Below, piece after piece: positions 1,443-7,437 of a stretch of DNA of 10,000 nucleotides (the first letter of the stretch is position 1; every line of letters begins with the position of its first letter). The DNA is from Acropora yongei (lineage: Eukaryota > Cnidaria > Anthozoa > Scleractinia > Acroporidae), in the NCBI GenBank assembly GCA_014634225.1, contig BLFN01000393.1:2672169-2682168 (forward strand), read 5' to 3'. The notes beneath the pieces were generated by a model. That model was not told where the DNA came from, did not search any database, and saw only the letters and a program-made list of their open reading frames with translations. Position numbers and translations under genes: made by a program.

Positions 1443-2177
1443 CTATAAATCGGTCGAGCACAGATCAGTCTCTGGCCCCAAATCCTCGTTTAGAAATCCA
1501 CTCCATGACATGAAACTTCTTAAATCTCCTCTGTTTGGGTCTCCATTTCTAGAAACCATGGGAAGAATCTCCCCGCTCCACGATGCACTTCGCTTTCTTT
1601 GGCGTCGTACGTTTTTCTGATCTTTATCACGGTTTTTTTGTTTATCAAACTGGATGCCCTGTGTGTCGTTCATGCATTCCTTCTCTTGTAAATAACGTTG
1701 TGTTGAATGGCATGGCGACTCCTGCTGAAAGTTCGCAGCGAATGGGTGTAATTGAAGCATTAAATTAACTTCTTCAGGTGTTTGAACGCAAATTGTTGGA
1801 ATAACAATCTGCTTTTCCTCCGGTGACGTTTTTCCAGTCTTGAAAGGAAAGATATGTCTTCTATGCAACGAAGTGTTTCCCTTCTGCTTCGCTCCACATG
1901 TCGAATTCTCAGGTTCCGATCTTCTTTGCTTTGCCTTTGACCCAAACAGCGAGCTCAGTTTTAGACTCTGCGGTGTGTGTTGATTGTCTTTCTTCATCAT
2001 TCTTGGTAAAGTAGAAGATCTTGTCCTGCGTAGGGATGTCACATCGACAGTCGCAGAGGAACCACTTTTAACCACACAAGGGATGTCCTCCGCCGACCGA
2101 GCGCTTCGATGTTTCAACGAAGAGAACGCTCGAAAACACATAATCGTGTGTTTTTTATCCACAAGAGGCTTCTCCAT
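1443..2177 (-). CDS. Gene A: uncharacterised 244-residue basic Ser-rich protein with 14-3-3-type motif and PDZ-ligand C-terminus
   Basis: I do not recognise this protein. It starts at an ATG in a strong context (A at -3, G at +4). Two in-frame stops lie just upstream (2208-2210, 2211-2213), so it begins here or follows an acceptor within those 30 bases; an AG sits immediately before the ATG. There is no signal peptide or membrane segment, and the composition suggests a mostly disordered protein. Residues 53-58 are RSSTLP, an exact mode-1 14-3-3 pattern (RSx[S/T]xP). Residues 85-89 are RRSEP. A basic run at 191-196 could be a nuclear signal and leads into RSASWS (196-201). SWSG occurs twice (199-202, 224-227). 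The chain ends LCSTDL; Thr-242, Asp-243, Leu-244 fit a class I PDZ ligand. A TATA box lies upstream at 2461-2468. The tail shared with gene B (6459-6806) is the best sign that this frame is real. The frame could instead be the last exon of a longer gene. Confidence 0.6.
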   Translation of the reverse strand: MEKPLVDKKHTIMCFRAFSSLKHRSARSAEDIPCVVKSGSSATVDVTSLRRTRSSTLPRMMKKDNQHTPQSLKLSSLFGSKAKQRRSEPENSTCGAKQKGNTSLHRRHIFPFKTGKTSPEEKQIVIPTICVQTPEEVNLMLQLHPFAANFQQESPCHSTQRYLQEKECMNDTQGIQFDKQKNRDKDQKNVRRQRKRSASWSGEILPMVSRNGDPNRGDLRSFMSWSGFLNEDLGPETDLCSTDL

Positions 2178-2401
2178 CTTTAATATTCCAATGAAGATGA
2201 AACGGTGTCACTATTCTATTCCGCTGGAAACACGAATCACAGAATCCAACAATATTGGCTTCAGTTTGCGTGAGATTTTTCTCCTGCAAGAAACCTCCAG
2301 CTTTGTCACGGCAACGTTATCTGCTGTAACTGATACCCAATCTCCTCTTACATTTCCTGCTCTTGTGTCTTCTAATCTAGACGTTAGGACACGAGTCAAG
2401 T

Positions 2402-2468
2402 ATTTGCATGCTTCTGTTTTTGCCTTGTAGGCATGAGTATCATCACTTGACCTACTGCTGTATTTATA
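2402..2468 (-). promoter_or_regulatory. Candidate core promoter of gene A: TATA box and octamer
   Basis: On the minus strand, 2468-2461 reads TATAAATA, a canonical TATA box. It predicts a start site near 2430-2440 and an unspliced 5' leader of about 255-260 bases. Bases 2402-2409 are a perfect POU octamer (ATTTGCAT on the plus strand), just downstream of the predicted start. The leader holds several short upstream ATG frames (for example from about 2435 and 2409) that end quickly, which could damp translation. TATA-driven promoters in animals are often inducible. The match is exact, but function is inferred from position only. Confidence 0.45.
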
Positions 2469-2469
2469 A

Positions 2470-3690
2470 GATCTTTAGGGAACTTGTTATTTCATTAGGC
2501 AACCATTGTCTGGGGTTGTAACCGTGCTAGAAGACGATACGTCTATGAGACATTGTTAGTGGGCGCACAAATTCACTGCCGTCGGAAACGATGTTTTCGG
2601 TTGCTTCTTCAAGTGTCAAGCCTCATTTTTTGTAGACAAAAAATGCAAATATGAAATGAAGATTTTTGTTGTTTGGGTTAGAGCAGAAATCATGTGTGTT
2701 TATCCATAAAATGGCGGCCAATAAATTTCGAGCTTTTTCTGAAGAAGACGGTATAAGCTCCAATACAATTCAATGACTTCATTGAAAGACGGAAGAACGA
2801 TTTTAAAAGGTATAAAATGAACAATTTCAGCTTGAAGTTGTAATTATATAAGAAGGCTTCAGTTTTTTAAAACGGAAAAAACTGTTCAAACTGTCTTGTT
2901 TCGTGTCAAACACTATTATCTTCAAAAAAGACAAATGATCTTTAACTCTCGGCTTCATTCTCTACTTGGCGCAATTGAAGAAGCCCAAAGAAGTGCTAAA
3001 GCTTAAGTGATGTTCTTTTGATAAAAAAGGAAGCAACTTGAAACAAAACCGCTTGAGTCTCTTTCAAGCGTAGGTCTTAAAATCCCACTGGTAGCTGACG
3101 CAAGAGAGTTTCTCTTACTCCCTTTACCGACTGTGCACACTAAGAACTCAATTTCGATAATGATATAGTTTTCGTGTTGACGAAATTATTGTTGTAGGCC
3201 ATTTTTTGTCCGTTTTGTCTTCAGAGTCCTTATTATACGAAATCGCTATCAGAACCCAAACATAGTTAGCTATAAATAGCAATATCCTTAGGTTTTATCG
3301 AGTGTGACCACTCGTCTCAAAGCTTATTTTCAACATAGCTCGTTTTCCCGGCCTTTGTTCTTTCAAGCTGATTATATTAAACTGCTTTAAAAGCCGGTGG
3401 CGGCTTTGATCGTAACAGGGGAGACCGGGGCTGATGGCTAATAATATTTCCCTAGGGGAATGTTAGAATTGATAATCCCCTATGGAAACATTTTAGGCAC
3501 CTCGTGGATATGTGATTCATACATATACCCCGTCGTTGTCTAAAATAACCCTTATATTTACGTTAAAATTGGAGAATTTTTGTTTTCAAGTGCGAATTTT
3601 CCTTAAGTTAACTTTTGTAGTCGACGATTGCGGTGCATAGGCATAACATATCCTGACCGTTTGTTAAAGAAGGTCATCGCTCTCAGGTCA
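2470..3690. other. Intergenic, no gene seen
   Basis: No coding frame is convincing on either strand. A TATAAAA at 2811-2817 (plus) has no open frame after it and is probably chance. The segment 3386-3500 is more GC-rich than its surroundings. It contains a perfect 7-bp hairpin with a 4-base loop (3390-3407) and an imperfect palindrome at 3448-3460, so it may be the remnant of an old repeat. No RNA gene was recognised. Confidence 0.4.
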
Positions 3691-3876
3691 CAGGGGCGGA
3701 TCTAGGAGATAGGTGTAGGGCTGCGCACTCCCTCCCCCTCGAGATGCCCTGAGGCTTTCTAAATGTCCTAAAATGAGAAGTATTCTTCAAAAGCAGCACG
3801 AGACAAGGTTGAAGTCATTTCTTAGTGATGCAGCATCTCCCCTTCTCTCCTAAGAATAATCCTGAATCCGCACCTC
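3691..3876. mobile_element. Non-autonomous hAT-like MITE, about 186 bp
   Basis: The left end at 3691-3707 begins CAGGGGCGGATCTAGGA. The right end at 3860-3876, read in reverse, is GAGGTGCGGATTCAGGA, matching the left end at 13 of 17 positions. The CAGGGGCGGATC-type terminus is characteristic of many hAT-superfamily elements and their MITEs across animals. The interior is too short to encode a transposase and has pyrimidine-rich tracts (3728-3740, 3838-3850). hAT elements make 8-bp target duplications, but the flanks (3683-3690 and 3877-3884) do not match, so the copy is either old and decayed or its edges are slightly off. Several terminal mismatches also point to an old insertion. It lies roughly midway between the starts of genes A and B. 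Confidence 0.7.
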
Positions 3877-5800
3877 GGTTATCTACAGCCCAAAATTGTG
3901 AGCCGGAGGATAAGCGGGTTTTTTTTCTAGAAATATATCGCTTCTGCAATTAAGCCACCTTGCGTCGCTCTGGCCTACTGCCAAGTAGTCCAGTGCTGTA
4001 TTTGGACCGATTCTAAGATAATGATACGGGAAAATGAAAGTTAAAGTTGAATAGTATTCTTAGATGAACAACTTTCCCTTGTTATACGAAACGTTAACTT
4101 AACGATAAGGGCTGAGGGACGCTTCGACACATCTATCATGCAAACTCATTCTGCTCGTTGTCTCGAAAGTCCTCGACATATCTGCAGCAGAGTTAGTGTT
4201 TAGAACTGAATTCTCGCAAATGTCCATTTGTACAAAAATTTGGGCGTACGGGAAATTTAGGCGTGAACTTTAATTGCAATCAAATAATTAATAAACATCC
4301 AATTTATGTCCACACGGACGTTTAAAGATGAATTATAAATGAGATACTTGACGACCTTATCAATTTTACACAGGCGCTCTTGGTCTGTAGCTTATAATCT
4401 TTCTGTACATATTAGAACCTACGAGAAGAAATTTTAACATTGTATCTCTTATAAAATTTCACCGGCAGACAAATGACCTGGTAACGCATTTTTTAAAATT
4501 GCTGTTAAAGACGCTGGAAAACGCTTTTTAATTGAGTGTCGAAAGGAGTTTCAAGTATTTGCTGAATGATCTTAGCCAATGAGGGGCAAACATAAAGCAA
4601 TTGTGGCTGATTGCTCGCACAATTTTTCCCGGGCTATGCACCGGGTGCACCATGAAGTTGCTTTCTCCCTTGAAAAGCTTTCAGAAAACAAGAAACATGA
4701 GAAGTAGTCTTTTTTTCTTGTTTTTCTATTGGATTTGAGGTAAGGTGTTTGCAAGCAAGAGTCCAAGGAATTCAACATGCTTCATTGACAACCTTTGAAC
4801 TAACATATCATATTTTATCTTTGTTTGTAAGCTATTCACAACAAAAAACTTATCACGAACTTGCTTTACTCATTAGAATCTTCGAGAACAAATTTCAATG
4901 CGGTCTTTTTTGGAGAAGTGTGCATGCCTGTCATTTTTTCAATTTCCGAGTCTTCATTGGTGTAAGTTGAAATAATCCAAATGTATTTTTATGCAAAATG
5001 GTGGTATTTTTAGCTTTCCGCTAGGTAGACCGTGAATGACAACAACGGATGTTTACTTTCGACGTCTAACGTCAAGCATTCGCTAAATTCAGGCTAATAT
5101 TTGGCATAAAACCTCGACAATCCTCATATTGTTTCCATACTATTTCTTGCAAGTGCTTGCTCTAAAGCTGTTACAGCAGTCAGTTAGAAGTAAGAACTCA
5201 GCTGAAATCAAACGTCTCGTTGACTTTGGCTCTCGCCACTCCACCTGTAAAACTTGGTGAAACGGCTTCTCATATCCTCATGACGTTTGCAATCTTGGTA
5301 AAAATTTAGTTGATAGTTGAGCCAAACAAGTTATAAACTATGCGTCAATCAAAAGAAAATGACAATATTGTTTTCCATTATTATCCAAACTGAGCAGCCG
5401 CTACAAGGTGTTTGAGAAGAGTGCATCATTTTTTTTTTTGAGTAAGGAAGGCAAAGCGCGGGACGCCAATGTTCAGCCATCGATAAACAGAAACTTTATT
5501 GATTTAAGGAGGCAAATTTCGCGATACAATGAATCCGGCGCGCGTTTTACAAGTAGGACATACATTTCTTTGCCGTGCGAAACGGCAGGGCCAGTCCACA
5601 GCGTTACAGCGTGCATAATACCGTCTTTTATCTTGTTTATCTTTTATCCGCTAAAGAATACCTTGCCAATTTTGTACAACGAAAAATAAAAGATTGAAAA
5701 TCGTGATTGCGCAAAGCTCTATGTGGAGATTTTGTTTCTAAATTACTGAAACTCCCTATTGAAAAAACCAGTAACGCCTAAAAGAAGTGACCTTTACCAC
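3877..5800. other. Long intergenic stretch, no gene seen
   Basis: About 1.9 kb with no frame I can support. A 68-codon minus-strand frame at 4572-4778 and a 93-codon plus-strand frame at 5408-5689 (no ATG start) are within chance expectation and resemble nothing known to me. Small structures include a 13-base palindrome at 4637-4649 (TGCACC-G-GGTGCA) within a GC-richer patch, and a CCAAT box on the minus strand near 4578. An AATAAA on the plus strand at 5685-5690 has no gene upstream that it clearly serves. Confidence 0.4.
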
Positions 5801-5811
5801 CAGCCGGTAAT

Positions 5812-5820
5812 TATATAAAT
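5812..5820 (+). promoter_or_regulatory. TATA-like box, candidate distal promoter of gene B
   Basis: TATATAAAT-like sequence at 5812-5820 is a good TATA match on the plus strand, about 640 bases before the gene B start codon. If used, the transcript would need either a leader of about 600 bases or a spliced 5' UTR. It competes with the nearer TATA-like site at 6223-6230. AT-rich DNA makes chance matches common. Confidence 0.2.
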
Positions 5821-5913
5821 TCTGCCCTGCTTTTCTGAGAAAATAACTACAAGCTGAAGATCTATCGAGTGTTGATTCTTAACTCATTTGTTTAAAGCGT
5901 CCATGAAGACAGG

Positions 5914-5951
5914 CCTGTAAATATATGTAAACACGTGTAAACGTTTACAGG
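5914..5951. promoter_or_regulatory. Forkhead/E-box palindromic cluster
   Basis: This 38-base block has outer arms CCTGTAAA (5914-5921) and TTTACAGG (5944-5951). Inside lie TGTAAACA (5926-5933) and the 12-base perfect palindrome GTAAACGTTTAC (5937-5948), giving three forkhead-type GTAAAC cores in about 23 bases. A CACGTG E-box (5932-5937) sits between two of them. It lies about 510 bases upstream of gene B. The density and symmetry suggest a real enhancer site; binding itself is inferred. Confidence 0.4.
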
Positions 5952-6035
5952 GAGTTAGGAAAGCAACCTCTTATTAACATAATCACCTTTAAGCCATTAT
6001 CTTTTAAGCGTGCCAGTAATTGAAAGATCACGAGA

Positions 6036-6051
6036 TTGGTAAATTTACCAA
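6036..6051. repeat. Perfect 16-bp palindrome
   Basis: The sequence TTGGTAAATTTACCAA is fully self-complementary. It lies 85 bases past the forkhead cluster and about 410 bases before gene B. It could bind a dimeric transcription factor, but I know no consensus for it. Confidence 0.5.
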
Positions 6052-6192
6052 CGGAAACTACGTGACAATATCAAAACAGTTCAAATGTTGGCAGCTAAGG
6101 AGTTCTCCTCAAAAGAAAATTGTTGGAGAACCCTTAACTAGGGGTCGTGAATTTGATGTTATTTGAAAATTGAAGAGGTCAAGCTCTGCGCC

Positions 6193-6230
6193 CTAAATAT
6201 AGCAAACGCAATCAGGGAGATCTTTATATG
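6193..6230 (+). promoter_or_regulatory. Candidate proximal promoter of gene B: MEF2 site and TATA-like box
   Basis: Bases 6193-6202 read CTAAATATAG, an exact match to the MEF2 consensus YTAWWWWTAR. Twenty bases further, 6223-6230 reads TTTATATG, a moderate TATA-like box that would place a start near 6255 and give a leader of about 200 bases. Spacing and orientation fit a compact plus-strand promoter for gene B, but the TATA match is imperfect. Confidence 0.3.
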
Positions 6231-6458
6231 CGGAATGTTTTGTTGACTCACCACTTAGTCGAAATTCTAGCTTTCTTTCTATGAGATCTGCAATTAGCGT
6301 CAAATAACAGAAGCCATCAGGCCAGAGACCAATCGGATTGATCAAAATGTCTCAATGTTTGAGATGATAAATCAAGGTCGTACACCTCGAATACATGTTC
6401 GGCGATTTTTATCTCTTGATTCTTGAACGCTTTAAAAGGATCTACTTAGCAGCTTGCC

Positions 6459-6806
6459 ATGAATGATAAATTCAACACGGAACTCACCAAAAAGATGCGG
6501 CGGAAAAGTTCTGGGAATATGAGCTCGGCGTCTTCCAGTTCAACAAGTTCATCTTTCAGCTGTTTCAGTGGCGAATCGTCTCTCGGCATGGATCTTGGAT
6601 CAGTGAGCGAGGTTGAAGCGCATCTAATAGACATGGCCGAGAATGCCAAACAGCGAAGGAGAGGACGTAGCAAGTCAGTGCCTCACATAAAGAGAGTTCG
6701 CACCTCGTCGACAGATGAACCAATTGACTTGACGGTATACACCAAGATGGATGCCAGGAGCTTCCAAGAAATGCAATCTACGAGCCTTTGTTCTACGGAG
6801 CTTTGA
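6459..6806 (+). CDS. Gene B: uncharacterised 115-residue Ser-rich protein with 14-3-3, CtBP and PDZ-ligand motifs
   Basis: I do not recognise this as a named family. The ATG has G at -3 and an in-frame TAG lies only 9 bases upstream (6447-6449), so it is the natural start unless a weak acceptor at 6452 is used. The frame is more GC-rich than its flanks. Residues 14-17 (RRKS) form a basophilic kinase site, and 22-34 are almost all Ser. An acidic/hydrophobic stretch (45-61) could form a short helix. Residues 66-72 are a basic patch, possibly nuclear. RSKSVP (70-75) is an exact mode-1 14-3-3 motif, RVRTSS (79-84) a second kinase-type site, and PIDLT (88-92) fits the CtBP-binding pattern PxDL[S/T]. 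The chain ends LCSTEL, with Thr-113, Glu-114, Leu-115 as a class I PDZ ligand, nearly identical to the end of gene A (1443-2177, opposite strand). There is no signal peptide or membrane segment. Function is inferred from short motifs only. Confidence 0.65.
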   Translation: MNDKFNTELTKKMRRKSSGNMSSASSSSTSSSFSCFSGESSLGMDLGSVSEVEAHLIDMAENAKQRRRGRSKSVPHIKRVRTSSTDEPIDLTVYTKMDARSFQEMQSTSLCSTEL

Positions 6807-7405: not shown

Positions 7406-7435
7406 AGGACGAAGTCCTAGGATGAAGTCCTAGGA
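7406..7435. repeat. 13-bp palindromic tandem repeat, 2.3 copies
   Basis: The units AGGACGAAGTCCT (7406-7418) and AGGATGAAGTCCT (7419-7431) differ at one base and are followed by a partial AGGA (7432-7435). The first unit is itself an inverted repeat, AGGAC-GAA-GTCCT. A tetranucleotide microsatellite begins three bases later. Confidence 0.75.
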
Positions 7436-7437
7436 TA

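Follow-up and report, generated by a model that had tools for sequence, protein, structure and literature searches.

We analysed 10,000 nucleotides of the genome of the stony coral Acropora yongei (hereafter the window; G000:C150:2672169-2682168 in an assembly of 405 Mb and 365 contigs). Two divergent genes in this window, gene A on the minus strand and gene B on the plus strand, are part of a local gene array with about five members, whose proteins end in one short peptide or, in one of them, a close variant; this is well supported for at least four genes, and the fifth, gene D, is a probable member. The original prediction, made from the window sequence alone, had proposed an inverted duplication of two genes. 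Instead, the array runs in the order and orientation C+, A-, B+, D-, E+, and gene A is closest to gene C in profile comparisons. In terms of function, the best overall explanation, with a probability of roughly 0.55, is that the array encodes predicted-disordered, phosphosite-bearing proteins sharing one PDZ-docking tail. The features are listed below, with window positions for genes A and B and positions on contig C150 for genes C, D and E, which lie outside the window; the letters A to E are labels.

Gene A, 1443..2177, minus strand: single open frame of 244 amino acids ending in ETDLCSTDL, with 8 relatives
Gene A tail ETDLCSTDL, 1446..1472, minus strand: fits the class I PDZ ligand consensus, with the stop codon TAG directly after it
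Gene A RSAS (residues 196-199) within RKRSASW, 1581..1592, minus strand: basic, phosphosite-like, kept in 8/8 relatives
Gene A conserved core IPTICVQTPEEV (residues 126-137), 1767..1802, minus strand: seen in the alignment of relatives
Gene A RSSTLP, 2004..2021, minus strand: second basic site, 14-3-3 mode-1-like, RSFSLP in distant relatives
Gene B, 6459..6806, plus strand: single open frame of 115 amino acids ending in STSLCSTEL, with 8 relatives
Gene B predicted helix (residues 49-67), 6603..6659, plus strand: block-mean predicted local distance difference test (pLDDT) 82, 75 for residues 51-70
Gene B RSKSVP (RSKS at residues 70-73), 6666..6683, plus strand: basic site, 14-3-3 mode-1-like, RSKSVPH in 8/8 relatives
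Gene B tail LCSTEL, 6786..6803, plus strand: fits the class I PDZ ligand consensus, with the stop codon TGA directly after it
Gene C, C150:2666313-2667299, plus strand: 328 amino acids, ending in ...IETDLCSTEL
Gene D, C150:2696483-2696803, minus strand: ending in ...RLSSTEI
Gene E, C150:2709726-2710136, plus strand: 136 amino acids, ending in ...TTNFCSTEL

Conserved relatives and genome-wide distribution of the tail

The two frames in the window are as originally described, A ending in LCSTDL and B in LCSTEL. Taken alone, this pair of sequences would be weak evidence of a relationship. Pairwise BLASTP aligned the tail (the last eight residues, 6/8 identical, expect value (E) 0.14) and left the bodies unaligned, and the whole-length profile comparison returned a probability of 6% (E = 0.006). 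In 400 Markov windows, no pair of ATG-initiated open reading frames (ORFs) of at least 60 amino acids agreed at 5 of the last 6 residues and two windows held pairs agreeing at 4, the agreement of the tails being a feature picked post hoc, after it had been seen. In 200 Markov windows, ATG ORFs reached at most 212 amino acids; gene A exceeds this with 244, and the 115 amino acids of gene B fall within the chance range of these windows. The pair by itself is weak evidence, and it is the conserved relatives that decide.

Full-length searches gave eight relatives of gene A among 108 candidates (E of 3.1e-23 or better, 93 to 35% identity) and eight of gene B among 37 candidates (E of 6.6e-27 or better, 98 to 56% identity), some of which are close, with up to 93% identity to A and up to 98% to B. 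LCST[DE]L is the exact C-terminus in all 16 (8/8 of A and 8/8 of B), and the homologues thus keep the conserved end. The nine sequences of the gene A family agree completely at 8 of their 9 C-terminal columns. The view that the shared end is not due to chance is borne out by these relatives and by the genome-wide rarity and the clustering of long frames that carry the tail. That A and B are two chance frames would agree with their unaligned bodies and with the length of B, but it is refuted by the conserved relatives and contradicted by the conserved tail, its rarity and its clustering, and we consider its probability negligible.

Two further features had been proposed as common to A and B. 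The RSxS element is conserved and located where it was placed, at residues 196-199 of A and 70-73 of B, but its fixed distance from the end holds for B (46 residues in 7/8 relatives; our script scored the eighth on a later site) and not for A, in whose relatives it varies from 43 to 52 residues. The RSF tripeptide also has the positions claimed (A 220-222, B 100-102) but occurs in 0/8 relatives of A and 4/8 of B, which makes it a coincidence. Additionally, RRxRSx[ST]LP is kept in 8/8 relatives of A, and an RSxSxP-like site is thus conserved there.

We searched the assembly with a degenerate pattern of codons that spell LCST[DE]L and a stop, which gave seven matches, compared with two for the reversed pattern. 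Four of the seven lie within 43 kb on contig C150, and the other three (L002, L003 and L008) are in frames of only 12-14 amino acids. A looser pattern (L/I/M/F/V at both ends, C/S at position -4) gave 23 matches against 19 for its reversed control; frames longer than 55 amino acids held four of the 23, namely A, B, C and E, all within the 43 kb, and the other 19 were in frames of 55 amino acids or fewer. The expectation of further genes with this ending nearby is accordingly borne out by C and E. For B and E, the assembly contained one match each. This pattern search is blind to a tail that an intron interrupts or that lies in masked sequence, and to one whose serine at -4 is encoded by AGY, as in gene D.

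A region of 130,000 bases that contains the window was also read; 51,149 of its bases are masked as N, and further members of the array may be hidden there. The readable part held 109 ATG frames of at least 50 amino acids. We filtered these for either an acidic class I end or a class I end together with a basic phosphosite, and the frames that passed were the five genes A to E, all of which have database relatives. Gene D has an upstream exon, MMNEMRPKEWEDIAFRLS, which starts at about C150:2697207 and is followed by GT; CAG precedes the second exon, and a hand count puts the intron at about 310 bases. Three database rows on contigs of at most 1159 bases (P0034, P0041 and P0046) run straight across this junction, which fits spliced mRNA.

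Some other features were observed in and around the array. A 148-amino-acid frame at window positions 1984-2430 on the plus strand overlaps the start of gene A in antisense (1984-2177) and extends beyond it, and a short tandem repeat, AGGATGAAGTCCT, is present in 2.4 copies at window positions 7406-7436. About 9 kb before gene C, an ORF at C150:2656948-2657514 (minus strand) has a DM DNA-binding domain in its first 60 residues (PF00751, E = 4e-9), and the array therefore adjoins a Dmrt-type gene. A frame of 1153 amino acids at C150:2736419-2739880 (minus strand), near the array, has printed ends consisting of repeats of MQNGTAIDRLNTPQ and is probably a long minisatellite of coding length.

Relationships among the five members and in other corals

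We made ten pairwise profile comparisons in total, and the E-values given are those of single comparisons. Over the last 60 columns, the A-C pair was the most similar (E = 3e-12), followed by C-E (2e-6), B-C (8e-6), B-E (1.5e-5), A-E (3e-5), A-B (6e-5) and B-D (0.002). In these seven of the ten pairs, none of 25 column shuffles per pair reached the observed score. When the last 12 residues were removed from the 60 columns, A-C was still clear (E = 2e-4) and A-B was marginal (E = 0.0036; score 16.7, where the shuffle maximum for the full 60 columns was 15.9); A-E, B-C, B-E, C-E and B-D were without convincing similarity. In A-E, B-C, B-E and C-E, the similarity over the 60 columns thus comes almost entirely from the tail. 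When whole bodies were compared with these 12 residues removed, the values were 3e-4 for B-E, reflecting a common basic element A-[KQ]-x-R-R...S-x-S, 0.019 for A-C and 0.067 to 0.62 for the other eight pairs. By profile, the nearest relative of gene A in sequence is C and not B. The original statement that A and B are real and related holds in so far as both are conserved and belong together; similarity between them beyond the tail is marginal.

These comparisons bear on how the array arose. Common descent of all five genes is likely from their sequences. Local duplication was probably the origin of the array, after which everything except the tail would have been replaced or have diverged fast. 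The genes might instead be unrelated neighbours that gained the motif by convergence or exon shuffling and serve one scaffold. Five of seven pairs without convincing similarity in the last 60 columns minus the last 12, and eight of ten pairs with whole-body E-values above 0.05 when the last 12 residues are removed, with A-C at only 0.019, agree with this alternative; however, A and C resemble each other just upstream of the tail, B and E have the basic body element in common, and tight clustering is what local duplication would lead one to expect. Accordingly, we regard independent origins as possible but rather unlikely.

Relatives of C, D and E were collected with a profile built from E, D and the C-terminal 190 residues of C. 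Among 1083 candidates, 70 proteins were found; the expect value was below 1e-3 for 41 of them and from 1e-3 to 1 for the other 29. Motif sorting placed 16 rows with C, 7 with D and 47 with E (P0032 and P0037 were assigned to E by eye). The tail is LCSTEL in 16/16 C rows and LSSTEI in 7/7 D rows, and the E rows end in FCSTEL (45), FCSTDL (1) or FCTTEL (1). The three rows that name an organism all come from stony corals: P0023 from Acropora cervicornis (D), and P0039 (OS493_008493, C) and P0082 (OS493_008498, E) from Desmophyllum pertusum. Acropora and Desmophyllum are both Scleractinia, of different suborders. Gene D is identical to the A. cervicornis protein at 101/106 positions, and gene E to one database row at 136/136. 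The relatives of gene C open with a near-invariant basic stretch, RRLGxEISKLGLRMR, of amphipathic appearance, which could bind membrane or calmodulin.

In the search used, the longest contig is reported for each protein cluster. Twenty-four rows were on contigs longer than 100 kb, with 17 distinct sizes, and no A row was among them. At five sizes, contigs of the same size join different families: 4,030,342 (C and E; Desmophyllum, with locus tags five apart), 2,044,226 (B and E), 904,884 (B, C and D), 824,971 (C and E) and 631,533 (C and E). Taking equally sized contigs to be the same contig, we infer that the families are linked in other genomes as well. Two E rows occur on one contig size in two cases, P0048/P0066 (684,019) and P0065/P0073 (71,326). 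P0048 and P0066 have unlike N-termini (MPQYK... and MRAQ...) and identical tails and are likely recent duplicates. The two cases suggest that duplication of gene E continues in some species.

The tail as a putative PDZ ligand on bodies predicted to be mostly disordered

The proposal of a candidate new protein family is consistent with our Pfam searches, in which no family convincingly covered A or B. Window gene A had no match and window gene B matched DUF1081 with 15 bits against a cut-off of 25; other members of the two families had best E-values of 0.01 (A) and 0.033 (B), without a convincing match, and six C, D and E proteins had none at the cut-off. DUF1081 was rejected for gene B, as it is below the cut-off and touches only 2/9 B members, and GAPT, which touches 4/9 A members with E = 0.01, was not taken as real. 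A likeness of B to the vertebrate RGCC protein was considered and dropped for want of such a Pfam match. Searches of solved structures returned nothing for gene A or for two tail peptides, and 12 rows for gene B (E of 0.29 to 0.87) without a convincing match. Literature searches, which covered few subscription journals, gave no publication title on proteins A to E among the matches listed.

Based on AlphaFold2 models from nine-row alignments, the gene A protein is predicted to be almost wholly unfolded (mean pLDDT 46.5, predicted template modelling score (pTM) 0.14), with short low-confidence helices at residues 134-142 and 144-148 that begin in or just past the core at 126-137. The gene B protein is predicted to be mostly disordered with one longer helix (mean pLDDT 60.4, pTM 0.22; helices at 49-67 and, short, at 99-102). 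In a charge-hydropathy plot, A to D fall on the disordered side.

Conservation of the tail was compared over 86 rows (8 of A, 8 of B and 70 of C, D and E), of which the 70 came from a tail-containing query and are biased towards the tail. In 19 of the 86 rows, W immediately follows the tail. In three B rows, the ORF continues through this W, and the same codon in the window DNA is the stop TGA; we took such a W to be a TGA stop that the source had translated as Trp. Provided that W in the 19 rows is a stop, the tail is the exact C-terminus in 86/86. Position -2 is T in all 86 rows and position 0 is L in 79 and I in 7, and all have the class I PDZ ligand features (S/T at -2, a hydrophobe at 0 and a free C-terminus). 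The motif [LF]CST[DE]L is exact in A, B, C and E. The codons of their tails are CTG TGC TCG ACC GAT TTA (A), CTT TGT TCT ACG GAG CTT (B), CTG TGT TCC ACA GAG CTA (C) and TTC TGT TCC ACA GAA CTG (E). The third base varies at 6/6 codons and the residues are constant except for L/F and D/E, a pattern that points to selection on the protein. Among windows of nine columns, the last nine rank 2/236 in A, tied 1/320 in C and 2/128 in E for conservation, and ties exist.

According to PMC2553845, class 1 ligands follow the consensus X[T/S]X-hydrophobe-COOH, and the cleft of a PDZ domain reads as many as seven terminal residues. Considering that the tail fits this consensus, that its variation follows the rule and that a PDZ domain reads up to seven residues, the tail would be read by a PDZ pocket. 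The substitutions (D/E at -1 and L/I at 0, with T at -2 fixed) are those that the class I rule allows. In the mechanism we propose, Ser-rich, phosphosite-bearing and predicted mostly disordered proteins would share the C-terminal peptide [LF]CST[DE]L (LSSTEI in one), and this tail would likely dock all members on class I PDZ scaffolds of a single kind. Basophilic kinases may phosphorylate the RSxS sites, after which 14-3-3 proteins could bind and switch the proteins between a scaffold-bound and a 14-3-3-bound state. In this case, the paralogues would compete for one scaffold, to which they would bring different bodies.

Other readers of the tail were considered. If the tail were a C-terminal degron, the adaptor of a ubiquitin ligase would read the free end and set the half-life of all proteins of the array. 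The exact C-terminal position in 86/86 rows (if W is a stop) would suit any pocket that reads a carboxylate, but the variation, with T fixed at -2 and L or I at 0, is that of the class I PDZ rule; no degron class with this tail sequence is known to us, though no search for one was made, which also counts against the degron, and we consider it improbable. Still less probable is that the tail acts as a phospho-dependent 14-3-3 mode III ligand, with a phosphorylated S or T near the carboxyl end and PDZ binding secondary. Positions -3 and -2 of the tail are S and T, and according to PMC7961048, class I tails bind 14-3-3 when phosphorylated at the end and do not bind when unphosphorylated. In the same source, however, arginines precede the phosphosite in most viral tails, whereas the array tails have ETDLC, STSLC or TTNFC before the site, without a basic kinase consensus. 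Retention in the endoplasmic reticulum through the final EL was dropped, as the consensus for it needs D, E, N or Q at -2.

Several points weigh against the reading of PDZ-docked disordered proteins. The strict Cys at -4 and the Leu or Phe at -5 exceed the needs of a simple class I ligand, and, by nine-residue windows, some stretches of B and D surpass the tail in conservation (the tail ranks 9/107 and 10/98, respectively). In terms of disorder, E lies on the ordered side of the charge-hydropathy plot and B is only narrowly disordered, and the low AlphaFold confidence, with alignments of nine rows, may partly reflect thin data. Gene D departs from the common tail with LSSTEI. In profile comparisons, it is linked weakly to B (E = 0.002) and not to A, C or E (E of 0.19, 0.052 and 0.31, respectively). 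As judged by its sequence, D is the weakest member of the array. Binding to PDZ and 14-3-3 partners and phosphorylation of the sites are predictions from sequence.

A more specific form of the PDZ-docking reading is one of 'one plug, many bodies', in which an array that stays together across stony corals would have multiplied one PDZ plug on different disordered, phosphosite-rich bodies, giving a set of orphan adaptors that compete for one scaffold under kinase control; we put this forward tentatively, as something short of an even chance. Disordered proteins that diverge fast are as a rule orphans with no starting point for functional work, and a common tail supplies one. Two families keep the tail in an Acropora-like genome and in Desmophyllum, from different suborders, and the array would be a case of a short linear motif outliving the protein bodies attached to it. 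One bait peptide should retrieve the common partner of the whole uncharacterised array.

Comparison with known systems

RSxpSxP is the 14-3-3 mode-1 motif. The putative sites RSKSVP in B and RSSTLP in A (RSFSLP in relatives) resemble those of 14-3-3 mode-1 clients, whereas RSASWS of A and the sites of C and E are without Pro.

RSK1 and papillomavirus E6 (PMC7961048) are comparable in that a class I tail and sites of the basophilic-kinase type occur in one protein, and 14-3-3 binding has been measured there for phosphorylated class I tails of RSK1 and viral peptides. In the array proteins, by contrast, RSAS of A and RSKS of B are outside the tail, at 43-52 residues from the end. The array proteins also differ in having no predicted folded domain, and we claim no sequence relation.

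The array is like other class I PDZ-ligand proteins in its C-terminal S-T-[DE]-[LI] (T-T-E-L in one row), with T invariant at -2 and a hydrophobe at 0. It differs from them in how far conservation extends, over six to nine residues of the tail with Cys at -4 among them (Ser in D), and in that the tail is carried by a cluster of neighbouring genes whose proteins have dissimilar bodies and lack a recognised domain.

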